Shown here piece after piece: positions 1 to 16,512 of a stretch of 34,946 nt of DNA. The notes beneath the pieces were generated by a model, which made no database searches, was not told the origin of the DNA, and saw only the letters and a list, made by a program, of their open reading frames with translations. How positions within the stretch are numbered: position 1 is the stretch's first letter; each line of letters starts with the position of its first letter. The position numbers were made by a program, and so were the translations under genes. The stretch is from an uncultured Spirochaetia bacterium (lineage in GTDB: Bacteria; Spirochaetota; Brachyspiria; Brachyspirales; Brachyspiraceae), in the NCBI GenBank assembly GCA_947038115.1, contig CAMQVF010000011.1:1-34946 (forward strand), in the 5' to 3' direction.

Positions 1-943
1 TCAAGTATTCACGAGCCTCATTTGGAATTTCATTTTCTTTGAGTAGTTTGAAATATGTATGAACAGGTGAAATATTTGAAATAATACTTTTCGCATGATA
101 TTCATTACCAAATTCATCAACAACACCCACCGCTTTTTCATCTTCAATTATAATACTTTCAATGCCACAATTATATTTCATCTCGCCACCAAGGTCTATA
201 ATTCTATCAGCCAGCGATTGAGATATAACTTGTGATCCCCCTCGAAGATAAAAAGGTTTCTCTTCTGTATAAATATGAAGCACACGAGCGAGAATCGAGA
301 ATGGAAAGCGTTTTGGTGGCATACCCATAAAGCACCAATGGGCTGACAAAACCAATTGCAACTCACGACTTTTAAAGAATTCGTCCAAGACATCTTGTGT
401 GCTACGTACTGCATATTTTGCGAGAGTTGGATATTTTTTAGGAAAACCTATTTTCATAATCATTTTTTTTAGAGAAGAAGCCTCCCCTGTACTACCCGCA
501 CTTGCTGCTAAAAATGAATTTATCTCTTCGTTAAAATTATAAACCATTTTATAATATTCCAAAATAGAATCTTTCTCTTCAGGAAATTCTTTTATCAATG
601 CTTTTTCAGCAAGGTCCCTATTCGCAGGCAACGCTACACCTCTATTTTTTGGTAAATTAACTTTATATAAAGTGTCAATTTCTATCCAGTCAATATTGTC
701 GACTATTCCATATTCCTCAAATAAAGTACGTAAAGGGCCCGGGTTTTCCTTTGTCCCCATACTGCTTAATTGATGGAGTGCAACCTCAAACTCGAAACGA
801 CCACGGCGAAAGCTAGTGCCACACCCCCCAGGTATATTATGTTTTTCAAACACGATAACTTTTTTATTTGCTAGTGCAAGTCTTGTAGCGGCAGCAAGTC
901 CACCATTCCCCGCACCAATTATAATTACATCATAAGCATTCAT
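1..943 (-). CDS. FAD-dependent phytoene desaturase/carotene isomerase-like oxidoreductase (3' end cut by window)
   Basis: The minus-strand frame is open from an ATG at 943 to the window edge, giving about 314 residues without a stop. The N-terminus has a dinucleotide-binding fold (VIIIGAGNGGLAAATRLA, residues 6-23) followed by an acidic residue in VFEKHNIPGGCGTSF. This is the usual start of the CrtI/CrtISO/retinol-saturase flavoprotein family. FRRGRFEFEVALH near residue 46 also fits that family. The ribosome site AAGGGG lies about 7 bases before the ATG. It follows the 260-residue membrane-protein gene by 17 bases and is probably co-transcribed with it. The substrate cannot be named: the family includes carotenoid enzymes, retinol saturases and uncharacterised bacterial members. 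No other carotenoid genes are visible. Confidence 0.8.
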   Translation of the reverse strand, partial: MNAYDVIIIGAGNGGLAAATRLALANKKVIVFEKHNIPGGCGTSFRRGRFEFEVALHQLSSMGTKENPGPLRTLFEEYGIVDNIDWIEIDTLYKVNLPKNRGVALPANRDLAEKALIKEFPEEKDSILEYYKMVYNFNEEINSFLAASAGSTGEASSLKKMIMKIGFPKKYPTLAKYAVRSTQDVLDEFFKSRELQLVLSAHWCFMGMPPKRFPFSILARVLHIYTEEKPFYLRGGSQVISQSLADRIIDLGGEMKYNCGIESIIIEDEKAVGVVDEFGNEYHAKSIISNISPVHTYFKLLKENEIPNEAREYL

Positions 944-960
944 AGACTTATCCCCTTTTA

Positions 961-1743
961 TTATTTTAATATCACCGAGAGCACCATTAATACAATATTG
1001 ACTATCATAAATACTATTTGTGCTCCTCTGGTTTTCGTACAATTTACAAACTTACTGAAGGCATCCGATTTTAACCCAACTTCAATTTCTTGTTTCCCAT
1101 ATATTTGCACACATCCACCAAATGTCAAAGAGTTAGCTCGGAATATAAGCCAATAACCGGGAGTCCATAATAATAGACAACTAGCAATTGGGGCTAACAA
1201 AATTCCTATATGCAGTTTTGCAATAGAATCTGAAAATTCATTAGTTACAAATATCCAATTCCAAATTGTGTATGCAATAATCCAAAATATAGATCCCCAA
1301 ACAGTTAACATATTAGCCTCATAAATATGAGCAAAAGGAGCTAAATCGGTTAGGTCAACCCACTTGGTTTGTAGAAAATACACTGAAATTGTAAGTAGAA
1401 TTCCTGTTATACCATTCCATACTTTTTTGCGTTTAAAGTCTGTAAGTGTTGCTTCGAGGATATTTATAGCTAAAAATATAAGTACTATTTTCATATAGAT
1501 ATCTCGACTTAAAATATTAAAAACTGCAAGCAAAATTGCAGCCCGTAATATTATTAATGTCGAGAGTTTTAACTTTTCGAAAAAAACCATTCTACAAGTA
1601 AACATAATTCCTATAGGTAAAAGTACGTTTATAGGTATGTTAGCAAAAACAGGTAGAAATGACGAGAGCATCGACACTCCCATAATTGAAATAGATAAAA
1701 TTACCCAAAGTATGTTTTGTTCATTTTTGTTTCTAGTTTCCAT
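961..1743 (-). CDS. hypothetical multi-pass membrane protein
   Basis: This 260-residue protein is strongly hydrophobic, with roughly six to eight membrane-spanning stretches; clear ones lie near residues 10-32, 36-50, 62-80, 112-125, 146-165 and 238-258. A charged N-terminal tail (METRNKNEQN) precedes the first. I recognise no family motif. A good promoter lies upstream, and AAGGTG sits about 7 bases before the ATG. The gene is followed after 17 bases by the FAD oxidoreductase, so the two may act on the same lipid-like substrate, but that rests on position alone. Confidence 0.7.
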   Translation of the reverse strand: METRNKNEQNILWVILSISIMGVSMLSSFLPVFANIPINVLLPIGIMFTCRMVFFEKLKLSTLIILRAAILLAVFNILSRDIYMKIVLIFLAINILEATLTDFKRKKVWNGITGILLTISVYFLQTKWVDLTDLAPFAHIYEANMLTVWGSIFWIIAYTIWNWIFVTNEFSDSIAKLHIGILLAPIASCLLLWTPGYWLIFRANSLTFGGCVQIYGKQEIEVGLKSDAFSKFVNCTKTRGAQIVFMIVNIVLMVLSVILK

Positions 1744-1891: not shown

Positions 1892-2563
1892 ATGGAACAA
1901 TTTAGAGTTATCGAGATTAAAGAAAGTATTTTTAAAGATAATGATGAACAAGCTCATTTACTTAGAGAAAGACTTAGAAATGAAAAAACTTTTCTATTAA
2001 ATTTAATGTCATCACCAGGTTCTGGCAAAACCACTACTGTTCTACAAACTATAAAAGCGTTAAAAGATGAAATGAAAATAGGCGTTGTAGAAGCCGATAT
2101 CGATTCTGATGTTGATGCAAAGTCGGTGGCTAACACTGGCACAAAAGTAATTCAATTACATACAGGTGGAATGTGCCATCTCAATGCGGATATGGCTAAA
2201 CAAGGATTAAATGCACTAGGTACAGAAGAGCTTGATTTCGTTATACTTGAAAATATTGGTAATTTAATTTGCCCAGCAGGATTTGATACAGGGGCATCTA
2301 AAAATGCTATGATTTTGAGTGTGCCTGAAGGTGATGATAAACCACTTAAATACCCTGCAATGTTTTCTGTGGTTGATGTTCTACTCATAAGTAAAATTGA
2401 TGTGCTAGAACATTTCGACTTCGATGCTAATGCTGTAATAAGTATTGCTAAAAAATTAAATCCTAATATCGAAATATTTCAGATTTCATCAAAAACAGGT
2501 GAAGGTATTGAAGAATGGATTAATTGGATACGTATCGAAGAAAAAAAATGGAATAATAAATAA
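1892..2563 (+). CDS. hypB: HypB, GTPase for nickel insertion (hydrogenase/urease maturation type)
   Basis: HypB is a SIMIBI-class GTPase that works with HypA to deliver nickel to the active site of [NiFe] hydrogenase. The 223-residue protein has the P-loop SSPGSGKTT (residues 40-48), the switch region EADIDSDVDA (67-76), the G-domain metal-site pair Cys95-His96 in TGGMCHL, a further Cys127 in ENIGNLICPAG and the base-recognition segment SKID (167-170). The N-terminus lacks both the CxxCGC high-affinity nickel motif and the His-rich stretch found in some homologues, so it is the short form. AGGA lies about 8 bases before the ATG. It is first in a three-gene plus-strand cassette ending with hypA. 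No hydrogenase structural gene is in the window, so the client enzyme is unknown. Confidence 0.92.
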   Translation: MEQFRVIEIKESIFKDNDEQAHLLRERLRNEKTFLLNLMSSPGSGKTTTVLQTIKALKDEMKIGVVEADIDSDVDAKSVANTGTKVIQLHTGGMCHLNADMAKQGLNALGTEELDFVILENIGNLICPAGFDTGASKNAMILSVPEGDDKPLKYPAMFSVVDVLLISKIDVLEHFDFDANAVISIAKKLNPNIEIFQISSKTGEGIEEWINWIRIEEKKWNNK

Positions 2564-2584
2564 ATATAGATAAGGAGAAATACT

Positions 2585-5266
2585 ATGGTAAATGAAAAAA
2601 TTTTAGATCTTGCTAATAAAATTAGTAGAACAAAACGTGGATCAAAGTCAGAAATTAAACCTGAATATCCTGAGTATAAAATTTTAGAACCCGTAGTAAC
2701 AGATGAAATGGCTGATGTCGCTATTTTCCTTGAATTCCATGCTCCACAAAGTGCTGCCGAAGTTTCTGTTTTATGCGGAAAGTCATTAGAAGAAACTAAT
2801 AGAATTCTATGGGAATTAGCAGTTGCAGGTGTTGCTTTAATGGGCGAAAAAGATGGGGTCGATAAATATTGGTTTGAAGTTTGGGTACCAGGCCATATGG
2901 AGATGATTGTTAATCACCCATTCAAAGGAAGCGTAGAAAATTACGAGCAAATAGCAAAGGCATTTGATGATTATGGTAAAAGACGTGGCCCTATGACGGC
3001 TGGTATTTTCCCCGTTGGTATGGGTCCTATGCGAGTAATTCCTATTGAGCAAGCTATTCAAGGCGAGACAAAAAGAGTTTCATATGAAGAAGTTTCAAAA
3101 TACCTTAATGACAATACAATTTTTTCAGTATCCGACTGTTCTTGCCGTACATCAAGAGAGGCTTTAGGTGAAGGTTGCGGACACTTAAAAGAAGACATGT
3201 GTATTCAATTAGGACATGCGGCAGAATACTATATCCGCACAGAGCGTGGTCGTGCTATCACTCGTGAAGAAGCTTTTGAAATTATTAAAAGGGCTGAAGA
3301 AAATGGCTTAATGCATGAGATGCCAAATATGGATGGTGAAGGTAAAACACATGCCATTTGTAATTGCTGTGGATGCTCATGTTATTCCTTGAGAATAGCT
3401 GGTATGTTTCTAAATAATGATATGATACGTTCTAATTATGTATCAAATGTTGATAAAGAAAAATGTGTGGCTTGTGGAGAATGTGCGGCGGTCTGTCCTG
3501 TTAATGCTTTAAAGCTTGGTCAAAAAATATGCTCTAAAGAACCACTAGTAGAAAACAAGAGAAAAGATTTTCCAACCGATACCGAGTGGGGTTCTGACAA
3601 ATGGAATAATGATTATCGTACAAATAGAGAAGATGTTTTGGAAACTGGAACTAGCCCTTGTAAGACAAAATGTCCTGCTCATATATCTGTTCAAGGATAT
3701 ATAAAATTAGCGGCACAAGGTAAATATAAAGAAGCATTACAACTCATAAAAAATGAGAATCCTTTTCCAGCTGTTTGCGGACGAATTTGCCCAAGTGAAT
3801 GCGAATCGGCTTGTACTCGAGGAGACCTCGACTCACCTGTCGCCATAGATGAAATTAAGAAATTTATCGCTGAACAAGACCTTAATATTGAAAATAGATA
3901 TGTTCCAAAAATCATGCATGAATATGATAAAAAAATTGCTGTAATAGGTGGCGGACCATCTGGTTTATCTTGTGCTTATTATTTAGCAATTGATGGTTAT
4001 AAAGTTACAGTATTTGAAAAAGAAAATGTTTTAGGTGGCATGCTCACACTAGGAATACCTTCTTTTCGGCTTGAAAAAAATGTTATTAATGCGGAGATTG
4101 ATATTTTAAGAGAATTGGGAATAGAGTTTAAAACTGGTGTAGAGGTCGGTAAAGATATTAGTTTAGATGAATTAAGAAAACAAGATTACAAAGCATTCTA
4201 TATTGCTATTGGTGCGACATCTGGTAGAAAAATTGGTATTGAAGGTGAGGACGCTGATGGAGTTCTTGTCGGTGTTGATTTTTTGCGTGATGTTAATTTA
4301 GGAAAAGATATTAAATTTGATGGTAAAATTATTGTAATCGGTGGAGGAAATGTCGCTATTGATGTTGCTCGTACGGCTACAAGAGTTGGAAGTTCAAGTG
4401 TCGAATTGTTCTGCCTTGAAAATGCTGAAGAAATGCCTGCTTTACCTGAAGAGCTTGAAGAGGCTTTAACTGAAGATATTTCAATAAACAATTCATGGGG
4501 GCCTAAACGTATAATTGTAGAAAATGGCAAAGTTGTAGGTGTCGAGTTTATTAAATGCCTTTCTGTATTCGATGAAAATGGAAAGTTCAAACCAGTTTAT
4601 GATGAATCTAATATTAAAAAAGTAGCGGCTGATAAAGTATTACTTTCAGTGGGGCAAGCTATAGAATGGGGTAATCTTATAGACGCTAGCAAAATAGTTC
4701 TTAACGCAAACCTTACAGCCAAAGCTGATGCATTTACACTACAAACAAATGAGCCTGATATATTTGTCGGTGGCGATGTTATGACAGGGCCTAAATTTGC
4801 AATTGACGCTATTTCATTGGGAAAAGAAGCTGCCATTTCAATACATCGTTATGTTCAAGTGGGGCAGAGTTTAACTTTTGGTCGAGCTAGAAGAGACTTC
4901 CATTCGCTTGATAAAGATAATTTAAATTTAGCAGGTTATGATGCCATTCCAAGAGAAAAAGCAGGACATGATAAAACAGCTTTTAATAAATCATCATTTA
5001 AAGATATTAGAAATACATTTACAGCCGAACAGATTGCCAAAGAAACCGAACGTTGTCTTGGCTGTGGTGTAACTGTGGTTGATGAATATTTATGTTTAGG
5101 TTGTGGAGCATGCACGACAAGATGTAAATTAGACGCCATCTCTCTTAAAAGAATACATGACTCGGGAGGCAAGGTGTTTGAAGAATTAAAACCTGTAATT
5201 GTTAAGGCTCTTATCAAGCGTAAGGGCAGAATGATTGCTAAAAAAATTAAAAATATATTTAAATAG
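2585..5266 (+). CDS. multidomain iron-sulfur flavoprotein, NAD(P)H oxidoreductase (glutamate-synthase small-subunit-like)
   Basis: This 893-residue soluble protein is a fusion. Residues 1-280 form an uncharacterised module ending in cysteine clusters (C185, C187, C198, C206 and the CNCCGCSC group at 259-266). A ferredoxin motif follows (C294, C297, C300, C304). Next is a GltD/NfnB-like core: Cys pairs at 359/363 and 398/402/406/410 for [4Fe-4S] clusters, an FAD-binding AVIGGGPSG near 452-460, an NAD(P)-binding VIGGGNVAIDVA near 584-595 and an FAD motif FVGGD near 727-731. The C-terminus carries C824/C827 and a CxxCxxCxxxC ferredoxin (C837, C840, C843, C847). It therefore probably moves electrons between NAD(P)H and ferredoxin-like partners. 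It is not ordinary glutamate synthase: no large subunit is present and the flanking Fe-S modules are extra. AAGGAG lies before the ATG. The gene sits 21 bases after hypB and 21 before hypA, which suggests a link to hydrogenase or another nickel enzyme. Confidence 0.85.
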   Translation: MVNEKILDLANKISRTKRGSKSEIKPEYPEYKILEPVVTDEMADVAIFLEFHAPQSAAEVSVLCGKSLEETNRILWELAVAGVALMGEKDGVDKYWFEVWVPGHMEMIVNHPFKGSVENYEQIAKAFDDYGKRRGPMTAGIFPVGMGPMRVIPIEQAIQGETKRVSYEEVSKYLNDNTIFSVSDCSCRTSREALGEGCGHLKEDMCIQLGHAAEYYIRTERGRAITREEAFEIIKRAEENGLMHEMPNMDGEGKTHAICNCCGCSCYSLRIAGMFLNNDMIRSNYVSNVDKEKCVACGECAAVCPVNALKLGQKICSKEPLVENKRKDFPTDTEWGSDKWNNDYRTNREDVLETGTSPCKTKCPAHISVQGYIKLAAQGKYKEALQLIKNENPFPAVCGRICPSECESACTRGDLDSPVAIDEIKKFIAEQDLNIENRYVPKIMHEYDKKIAVIGGGPSGLSCAYYLAIDGYKVTVFEKENVLGGMLTLGIPSFRLEKNVINAEIDILRELGIEFKTGVEVGKDISLDELRKQDYKAFYIAIGATSGRKIGIEGEDADGVLVGVDFLRDVNLGKDIKFDGKIIVIGGGNVAIDVARTATRVGSSSVELFCLENAEEMPALPEELEEALTEDISINNSWGPKRIIVENGKVVGVEFIKCLSVFDENGKFKPVYDESNIKKVAADKVLLSVGQAIEWGNLIDASKIVLNANLTAKADAFTLQTNEPDIFVGGDVMTGPKFAIDAISLGKEAAISIHRYVQVGQSLTFGRARRDFHSLDKDNLNLAGYDAIPREKAGHDKTAFNKSSFKDIRNTFTAEQIAKETERCLGCGVTVVDEYLCLGCGACTTRCKLDAISLKRIHDSGGKVFEELKPVIVKALIKRKGRMIAKKIKNIFK

Positions 5267-5287
5267 TAATAAAATAGGTGGTAAAAA

Positions 5288-5629
5288 TTGCATGAATTAA
5301 GTGTTGTTTTTGAGGTTGTAAAGACAGTGGAGAAATTTGTACAAAGTAACAATTTAGTTAAAGTTGATAAAGTAGTTTTACAGATAGGGGAACTTTCTTC
5401 TATGATTCCAAAATATGTAGAAGCTTGTTACCCTGCTGCTGTGGATGGCACTATATTAGAAAATACGAAACTAGAGATTGAAATATTACCCGGGAATGCT
5501 CTATGCAAGAATTGTGATAAAGTTTTCAATTTGATAAAAAATAATAAGATTTGCCCCAATTGTCAATCTGATTCTTGGGAGTTGCTTGGTGGGCGAGAAT
5601 TTCTTATCAAAGAGATAGTTGCTTGTTGA
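5288..5629 (+). CDS. hypA: HypA, nickel metallochaperone, TTG start
   Basis: HypA binds nickel through its N-terminal Met-His-Glu and passes it to the hydrogenase large subunit with HypB. The start is TTG at 5288, which makes the N-terminus Met-His-Glu-Leu-Ser, exactly the conserved HypA start with nickel ligand His2. An AGGTGG ribosome site at 5276-5281, 6 bases upstream, supports it. The structural zinc site is visible as CKNC and CPNC, separated by 13 residues. The length, 113 residues, is normal for the family. The gene is last in the hypB/oxidoreductase/hypA cassette. Confidence 0.93.
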   Translation: MHELSVVFEVVKTVEKFVQSNNLVKVDKVVLQIGELSSMIPKYVEACYPAAVDGTILENTKLEIEILPGNALCKNCDKVFNLIKNNKICPNCQSDSWELLGGREFLIKEIVAC

Positions 5630-5638
5630 TGCTATAAA

Positions 5639-5682
5639 AAAATAGATTTTATATCGAATAGACTAATTTAAAAATCTATTTT
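5639..5682. terminator. AT-rich hairpin between convergent hypA and smpB, possible bidirectional terminator
   Basis: AAAATAGATTTT (5639-5650) and AAAATCTATTTT (5671-5682) form a perfect 12-base stem with a 20-base loop. The right arm covers the smpB stop codon. The stem has only two G-C pairs, so its strength as a terminator is uncertain. Confidence 0.4.
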
Positions 5683-6140
5683 GTAACATAGCGTTCCATT
5701 TCTCTATCTAATGATTTTTTCTTTAATGTCTCTCTTTTATCATGCAACTTTTTACCACGTGCCAATGCTAGCTCTAATTTAATTTTTCCATTATTGAAAT
5801 AAAGTTTAACTGGAATAAGTGTAAGCCCTTGTTCTTTAACTTTGCCATATAAACGTTTTATTTCCTTTTTTTTCATTAAAAGCTTTCGTATTCTTAAAGG
5901 ATCATGATTATTTATATTTCCAAAATTATAATGTGAAATATGCAAGTTCACTAAAAAAAGTTCACCTTTCTTGAAAGTAGCATAAGACTCGCTAATATTT
6001 ACATTTCTTGCACGTAGCGACTTCACTTCTGTGCCAACGAGGACAATGCCAGCCTCGAATGTGTCAACAAGTTCATAATTAAAAAAAGCTTTTTTATTTT
6101 TTATTATTTCACTACTATTATCATGCTTTTTTTTACTCAT
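5676..6140 (-). CDS. smpB: SmpB, tmRNA-binding protein
   Basis: SmpB binds tmRNA and carries it into stalled ribosomes for trans-translation. The 154-residue product has the family hallmarks: KKAFFNYEL near the start, ETxEAG-like DTFEAGIVLVGTEVKSLR, NISESYA, LFLVNLHI, HDPLRIRKLL, and the basic C-terminal tail (GKKLHDKRETLKKKSLDRE) that enters the empty A site. The tmRNA gene, often adjacent to smpB, is not present in this window. It is the last gene of the recX-alaS unit, 16 bases after the ligase gene. Confidence 0.95.
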   Translation of the reverse strand: MSKKKHDNSSEIIKNKKAFFNYELVDTFEAGIVLVGTEVKSLRARNVNISESYATFKKGELFLVNLHISHYNFGNINNHDPLRIRKLLMKKKEIKRLYGKVKEQGLTLIPVKLYFNNGKIKLELALARGKKLHDKRETLKKKSLDREMERYVTK

Positions 6141-16059: not shown

Positions 16060-16512
16060 ATGGAAATTGATGTTAAAGAATTGAGACTTAAATCGGAAGA
16101 ATATTACAGAAGTGGAGCATTTTACTGTTCTGAAGCTATACTAAAAACTCTAAAAGACGGTTTTAATGCACCATTCTCGGATGATATTATAAAATTATCC
16201 TCTGGATTTCCTGTAGGCATGGGCAATGGATGTACATGTGGCGCTATGAATGGCGGAGTTATGGCAATAGGGATGATGTTTGGACGGGACGAGCCTCATG
16301 CTCCTGAAGTTAAGAAAGCTATGAAACTTGCAAAAGAATTACAGCTTGAATTCACTAAAAAGAGAAAATCATGTTGTTGTAAAATTCTCACAAAAGGTTT
16401 AATTAAAGGATTACCACAACAAGTAAATCAGTGTATAGAACTTACTGGAGAACTCACAGAAATGACAGCTAGAATTTTAGCGAGAGAACTTGGATACAAA
16501 ATAATAAATTAA
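16060..16512 (+). CDS. C_GCAxxG_C_C family cysteine-rich protein
   Basis: This 150-residue protein matches the C_GCAxxG_C_C family layout: Cys23 in FYCSEA, the core GCTCGAMNGG (57-66), a triple Cys at 105-107 and Cys125. Members are thought to be redox-active or metal-binding; their biochemical role is not established. AGGA lies 6 bases before the ATG, and the gene sits 18 bases after pgk, so it is probably on the pgk mRNA. A strong hairpin follows it. Confidence 0.85.
   Translation: MEIDVKELRLKSEEYYRSGAFYCSEAILKTLKDGFNAPFSDDIIKLSSGFPVGMGNGCTCGAMNGGVMAIGMMFGRDEPHAPEVKKAMKLAKELQLEFTKKRKSCCCKILTKGLIKGLPQQVNQCIELTGELTEMTARILARELGYKIIN

Follow-up and report, generated by a model that had tools for sequence, protein, structure and literature searches.

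A candidate nickel-dependent reductase of the IsrA family encoded between hypB and hypA in an uncultured spirochaete

Which enzyme receives the nickel when HypA and HypB are encoded in a genome without a [NiFe] hydrogenase? This question is raised by a three-gene cassette on the plus strand of a 34,946-nucleotide stretch of DNA (referred to below as the window), contig CAMQVF010000011.1 of assembly GCA_947038115.1 from an uncultured member of the Spirochaetia (Brachyspiraceae in the GTDB lineage). Here hypB and hypA lie on either side of a gene for an 893-residue iron–sulfur/flavin adenine dinucleotide (FAD) oxidoreductase, which we call OX, with a gap of 21 bases at both junctions (Table 1) and a purine-rich ribosome-binding site ahead of each of the three genes. 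An earlier, sequence-only reading of the window had drawn attention to this arrangement, and family scores and coordinates agree with it; we also judge it to have been right that the genes share one mRNA. It had further noted that hypC, hypD, hypE, hypF and hydrogenase genes are missing from the window, which holds, and the absence of a [NiFe] hydrogenase extends to the genome. We consider it fairly probable that the cassette makes and loads a single nickel-dependent reductase of the IsrA (‘clade 9’) family, which would hydrogenate carbon–carbon double bonds, possibly those of a conjugated lipid or fatty acid.

The nickel client of HypA and HypB

The host genome (1.77 Mb, 99% complete, with the window as contig 11) holds a single HypA, that of the cassette. 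Family-by-family searches of this genome recovered no carbon monoxide dehydrogenase (CODH), lactate racemase (LarA) or urease, and there was no match to the large subunit of [NiFe] hydrogenases (PF00374); HypC, HypD, HypE and HypF were looked for in the window and not genome-wide. Three [FeFe] hydrogenases are present, enzymes that need no nickel. In the sequence-only reading a genome devoid of nickel enzymes had been counted as an argument against its interpretation. Such a lack is indeed seen for all the known nickel enzymes tested, and for that very reason we regard the case for OX itself being the nickel enzyme as strengthened.

The survey of nickel enzymes covered 32 genomes that carry the cassette. 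CODH was found above the family cut-off in three of them (matches under the cut-off resembled hybrid-cluster proteins and were left out of the counts), [NiFe] hydrogenase in 12, LarA in six and urease in one; Shewanella sp. SR44-3 and Vibrio tapetis have none of the four, and no [FeFe] hydrogenase either. These searches rule out hydrogenase, CODH, lactate racemase and urease as a shared client of HypA and HypB. At least two strong HypA proteins are encoded in all 12 genomes with a [NiFe] hydrogenase, and in several of them the extra gene plainly lies by the hydrogenase (e.g. on contigs C39 of genome G061 and C56 of genome G065). A single strong HypA was found in 16 of the 20 cassette genomes without a [NiFe] hydrogenase, and in all four exceptions (G062, G075, G076 and G082) the second HypA gene adjoins a second OX gene. 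Because the host genome has no known client and HypA copy number follows OX, the simplest reading is that OX itself is most likely the protein that receives the nickel. Transporter genes are also found beside the cassette: genes for CbiM-PDGLE, CbiQ and an ATP-binding cassette-type ATPase directly follow hypA at locus L055, locus L056 shows the same order as judged by clustering, and at locus L058 the gene ahead of hypB encodes a HupE permease. The HypA–OX pairing and these transporter genes, which are new in this analysis, provide independent support for nickel in OX. The view that the cassette is a leftover of a hydrogenase is probably to be favoured less than that of a nickel-dependent system hydrogenating double bonds.

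As a separate observation, a HypA gene in Ferrimonas (G072 C11:218331-221166) directly adjoins a CODH gene, which suggests that HypA is used for CODH there.

A scan of genome contigs for relatives of OX gave 61 loci, 59 of which encode full-length or contig-cut relatives with 59–94% identity, the other two matching its GltD-like half only. Most loci whose contig extends far enough have hypB and hypA flanking OX, and this conservation of the cassette far exceeds chance. The check on gene order that had been proposed with the sequence-only reading thus had a positive outcome: the three genes stay together in most loci and their order varies, being OX-hypA-hypB in two Treponema-type genomes (G048 and G059). 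The carriers include Clostridia, Spirochaetota, Shewanella, Vibrio, Ferrimonas, Hahella and one metagenome-assembled genome of the Bacteroidota.

Kinship with IsrA and the candidate nickel site

The system is known in kind. IsrA, a putative isoprene reductase of 901 residues from Acetobacterium wieringae ISORED-2, is the product of an operon induced by isoprene, which also encodes HypB and two HypA proteins, in a genome without a [NiFe] hydrogenase (Kronen et al., 2023; PMC10134865). This isr operon comprises five genes, two hypA genes, hypB and a 4Fe-4S ferredoxin gene among them, and IsrA is up by about 10.7 log2 units with isoprene (PMC10134865). The same authors described 988 IsrA homologues, with neighbour frequencies of 0.73 for hypA, 0.56 for hypB and 0.4 for DUF5692, and have already suggested that nickel is inserted into IsrA at ‘cluster V’ (PMC10134865). 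OX resembles IsrA in its length of about 900 residues and in its layout, with an N-terminal cysteine-rich domain of no known family followed by Fer4_20, an FAD/NAD(P) domain and a C-terminal ferredoxin; in both cases hypA and hypB are adjacent, DUF5692 is a frequent neighbour of the family and the genome is without a [NiFe] hydrogenase. Two CxC motifs, C185-C187 and C259-C261 in OX and Cys180-Cys182 and Cys254-Cys256 in IsrA, are spaced by 74 in both proteins. Judged by these published landmarks, OX belongs to the IsrA ‘clade 9’ family, of which it is a new member. The window cassette differs from the isr operon in having three genes rather than five, with no second HypA and no separate ferredoxin, and also in its spirochaete host and its CrtI-like FAD neighbour. 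The sequence-only reading had presented the cassette as a poorly described system; biochemically it is uncharacterised, but as a member of the family reported by Kronen et al. (PMC10134865) it is not undescribed.

Five cysteine clusters of OX (residues 185-206, 259-266, 294-316, 359-410 and 824-847) are invariant in 52–53 aligned relatives, and Pfam places Fer4_20 at residues 355-432 and Pyr_redox_2 at residues 450-744, in addition to Fer4 sites; the four or more cysteine-cluster regions and the FAD and NAD(P) sites recognised earlier are borne out. The Fer4_20 and Pyr_redox_2 domains are those seen in NfnA, GltD and dihydropyrimidine dehydrogenase. When the N-terminal 345 residues were compared with Pfam and with solved structures, only a Fer4/ferredoxin motif was matched, and a fold search with a model of this domain, itself of low confidence (predicted local distance difference test score, pLDDT, 65.9), gave no match at E 0.001 and a weak winged-helix likeness. 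The AlphaFold2 model of full-length OX has a pLDDT of 83.

Within the N-terminal domain C185, C187, C198, H200, C206, H244, H256, C259, C261, C262, C264 and C266 show no variation among 53 OX proteins of the cassette. Other spirochaetes encode standalone proteins of about 350 residues that correspond to this domain and have C185, C187, C198, C206, C259, C261, C262 and C266, and are without H200, H211 and H256. In a second OX type from Eubacterium (L113 and L114), for which hypB is not adjacent, H200, C262 and C264 are replaced by D, N and N. In this small sample H200, C262 and C264 track the presence of HypB, which makes them candidate nickel ligands only. A strict tie of histidines to HypB, as first considered for H200 and H256, was dropped for H256 and H211 owing to locus L115, described below.

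The Eubacterium locus with the second OX type (L113, L114 and L117; G075 C7 and G076 C2) looks like a separate nickel system. It encodes an HGD-D protein of the double-cubane type, a BadF-type activase, a 965-residue OX and HypA, with HypB not adjacent, together with a CooC-like ATPase and a second HGD-D-related protein (both recognised by eye) and a 240-residue protein weakly like acetyl-CoA synthase (CdhC).

In the mechanism that we infer for the cassette, the GTPase HypB would pass nickel to HypA, and HypA would insert it into OX at a site proposed to lie around C185-C206, H200, H256 and C259-C266. Reduced nicotinamide adenine dinucleotide (phosphate), NAD(P)H, would then reduce FAD in the GltD/NfnA-like C-terminal half, from where electrons would pass through the two Fer4_20 clusters and the ferredoxin-type clusters to a Cys/His Ni–Fe–S centre in the N-terminal domain. 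This centre would hydrogenate a carbon–carbon double bond that is most likely unactivated and part of a conjugated system, possibly in a conjugated lipid or fatty acid. The HypA of the cassette has the MHEL nickel site and two CxxC zinc motifs; the hypB product is without an N-terminal CxxCGC motif and without a histidine-rich region, and its G-domain metal residues are present (GGMCHL, NLICPA). The two proteins are thus of the families that act in [NiFe] hydrogenase maturation, with the nickel residues kept, but the host genome has no large subunit for them and their client is most likely another one.

Table 1. Coordinates of the cassette, of the parts of OX and of neighbouring genes in the window
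Feature	Position	Strand	Description
hypB	1892..2563	+	223 residues; nickel-binding GTPase; TIGR00073 HypB 246.6 bits (cut-off 121.2); Pfam cobW
OX	2585..5266	+	893 residues; IsrA-like Fe–S/FAD oxidoreductase
OX residues 1-345	2585..3619	+	N-terminal domain with winged-helix-like start and Cys/His-rich core; proposed to be catalytic and nickel-bearing
OX residues 185-266	3137..3382	+	C185xC187, C198, H200, C206, H244, H256, C259xC261 C262, C264, C266; candidate cluster V/nickel site
OX residues 294-316	3464..3532	+	[4Fe-4S] ferredoxin motif CxxCxxCxxxCP and C316
OX residues 355-744	3647..4816	+	Fer4_20 (two [4Fe-4S] clusters) with FAD/NAD(P) domains; module for electron input of the GltD/NfnA-like type; PF14691, PF07992
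OX residues 824-847	5054..5125	+	C-terminal ferredoxin-type cysteine cluster; invariant in 52 of 53 aligned rows, one row truncated
hypA	5288..5629	+	113 residues; nickel metallochaperone; Pfam HypA PF01155 109.3 bits (cut-off 28.9)
DUF5692 gene	961..1743	-	Predicted membrane protein; PF18948 27.8 bits (cut-off 27); divergent neighbour of the cassette
CrtI/phytoene-desaturase-like gene	1..943	-	Partial FAD protein, truncated where the window begins; Pfam Amino_oxidase and NAD_binding_8
smpB	5676-6140		Convergent with the cassette; downstream boundary

The substrate and competing roles for OX

An FAD protein gene adjoins the cassette in five relatives (L045, L061, L076, L079 and L087). For the two of these proteins that were compared with solved structures, the best match along the whole protein is 2b9w, the P. 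acnes fatty-acid isomerase that converts linoleate to conjugated linoleic acid (CLA), with E 1.9e-59 for L087 and E 5e-26 for L061, and the proteins of the other three loci are 58–63% identical to that of L087. In 69 genomes the strong 2b9w-like homologues are these five only, all at the cassette, with two weaker paralogues elsewhere in two of the five genomes; this neighbour was itself the reason for including three of the five genomes, which biases the rate upward. Such neighbours of the cassette are new in this analysis. The CrtI-like FAD protein of the window (matches to PDB 4rep and 4dgk at about 3e-11) occupies the corresponding place and is a possible double-bond isomerase partner; an iterated search meant to find CrtI-like neighbours was set aside, as the FAD fold they have in common with OX made it converge on OX itself. 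Furthermore, about 20 loci have a GntR/FCD regulator gene oriented divergently from hypB, and an oleate hydratase adjoins two Acetobacterium homologues of IsrA in a report that does not mention linoleate (PMC10134865). Taken together, the isomerase, oleate hydratase, CrtI-like and regulator genes in this neighbourhood suggest, as a hypothesis, that conjugated fatty acids or similar lipids are reduced by part of the OX family. Oleate hydratase was rejected as a general partner: a full-length gene is present in nine of the 32 cassette genomes, all of them Bacillota and none a spirochaete, and this is uninformative here.

That OX instead reduces isoprene or terpenes, and not fatty-acid dienes, appears to us rather unlikely. 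By proteomics, the induced homologue IsrA acts on isoprene in Acetobacterium, and strain N, which has a similar cluster, reduces butadiene. Compared by published landmarks, however, the ferredoxin motifs of OX are offset from those of IsrA by +5 on the N-terminal side and by about -21 on the C-terminal side, so that OX seems to be without the 26-residue insert (IsrA 756-782) of the isoprene subgroup. The five-gene isr operon is absent at the window cassette, and it is fatty-acid isomerase homologues that adjoin its relatives, with oleate hydratase beside the two Acetobacterium homologues.

Several points weigh against a nickel-dependent reductase acting on lipids. The membership of OX in the IsrA family rests on published landmarks, and in the literature we found no biochemistry on OX or any IsrA homologue and no reported nickel measurement. 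A second OX copy that is accompanied by HypB and HypA (L115) has F and D in place of H256 and H211, so neither histidine is universal, and at L079 an OX gene stands without hypA or hypB within the stretch examined. In the window itself the neighbour is CrtI-like and not PAI-like, and a search of the host genome found neither a PAI-like gene nor an oleate hydratase gene.

The sequence-only reading had also considered that OX is an electron donor, which takes electrons from NAD(P)H and hands them to ferredoxin or to a nickel enzyme with its gene at another place, and that HypA and HypB serve that or some other enzyme. We think this improbable. The C-terminal half of OX is closest to the electron-bifurcating subunits of NfnABC and StnABC, and [NiFe] hydrogenases, or in three cases CODH, are present in some cassette genomes. 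Against this, the host genome has no known client, genomes with a hydrogenase have a further HypA and elsewhere an extra HypA tracks an extra OX, and no second Nfn subunit is conserved beside OX.

A variant of the same idea, in which OX is an Nfn-type flavin-based electron-bifurcating NAD(P)H:ferredoxin oxidoreductase that stands next to the nickel proteins for regulatory or historical reasons, is in our opinion very unlikely. OX is 36% identical to the large subunits of Nfn-ABC and StnABC over about 475 residues, its nearest solved structures are NfnABC and StnABC (over residues ~360-830), and residues ~355-760, with Fer4_20, FAD and NAD(P) domains, are shared with NfnABC, StnABC, NfnI and GltD-type proteins (TM-score over the query about 0.5). 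The host and 23 other cassette genomes encode [FeFe] hydrogenases, for which ferredoxin is a common partner. However, Nfn has nothing that corresponds to the N-terminal 345 residues, no flavin/NAD subunit of the Nfn or Stn type is a recurrent neighbour among the 61 loci, the gammaproteobacterial cassette genomes tested have no [FeFe] hydrogenase, and the strict coupling of OX to HypA and HypB would be left unexplained. Delivery of cobalt or zinc by HypA and HypB, or a part for them in [FeFe] hydrogenase maturation, is a highly improbable reading: zinc is also bound by the HypA family, cobalt can be carried by CbiM-type transporters and the host has three [FeFe] hydrogenases, but eight cassette genomes have none, the nickel residues (MHE and CH...C) are kept and a HupE-type permease is encoded in one cassette.

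We return to OX as a nickel-dependent reductase. The reaction type proposed here is also that of the CLA reductase of rumen bacteria, and fatty-acid isomerase homologues adjoin relatives of the cassette. No sequence for CLA reductase was found in the literature searched, and its identity with OX is put forward as a hypothesis only. A rumen Treponema hydrogenates unsaturated fatty acids according to Yokoyama and Davis (1971), as cited in PMC9533493. In Butyrivibrio fibrisolvens, strain TH1 has CLA reductase, whereas MDT-5 reportedly lacks it (PMC12254105). It is conceivable, though on balance doubtful, that the cassette represents a new class of nickel enzyme, an Ni/Fe–S alkene hydrogenase with an N-terminal domain of no known fold family that is loaded by HypB and HypA without HypCDEF, and that in some bacteria acts as CLA reductase after a PAI-type isomerase in the biohydrogenation of polyunsaturated fat.

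To our knowledge, few nickel enzymes are known. If OX carries nickel, it would stand for a widespread class of enzymes that add hydrogen to unactivated double bonds and need HypA and HypB only, and ‘orphan’ hypAB pairs in anaerobes without a [NiFe] hydrogenase would be explained. The fatty-acid isomerase neighbours also raise the question of whether the OX family carries out the reduction when fat is biohydrogenated in the gut and rumen.

Surroundings and spread of the cassette

In a quick tree the window OX falls into a set of eight proteins (support 96) with six from Bacillota and one from another spirochaete, and its top identity is 74%, to Clostridium sulfidigenes, as against 62–63% to the G048 group. 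Because of this grouping and this identity, transfer of OX between phyla is likely. A congener (G001) and the other listed family members except G002 match the GltD-like half of OX only. The syntenic copy in a sister genus (L005/L036, on G002 C4) has hypB, OX, the DUF5692 gene and the FAD gene all frame-broken, by assembly error or decay.

The CrtI-like gene of the window sits beyond the DUF5692 gene as seen from the cassette, and about 15 other loci also have a DUF5692 homologue close to the cassette. The start codon of hypA is TTG, with the ribosome-binding site aggtgg ahead of it. Promoter matches in the window were no more frequent than in shuffles, all terminator matches fall inside OX, and a plasmid search gave no match. 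A membrane protein of 215–245 residues, forming one cluster, adjoins the cassette at L053, L061 and L097; it belongs to the DsbD_2 family at L061 and L097, the two that were scanned, and is possibly a metal permease.

The cassette is also present on unannotated human faecal contigs. Four human faecal records labelled ‘Bacteriophage sp.’ (L126-L129: MT835493, MT835472, MT835711 and MT835522) encode OX with HypA, HypB or both, and resemble pieces of bacterial chromosome. Elsewhere in the window, positions 16060-16512 encode a putative redox protein of the C_GCAxxG_C_C type directly after the glycolytic gene pair gap-pgk.

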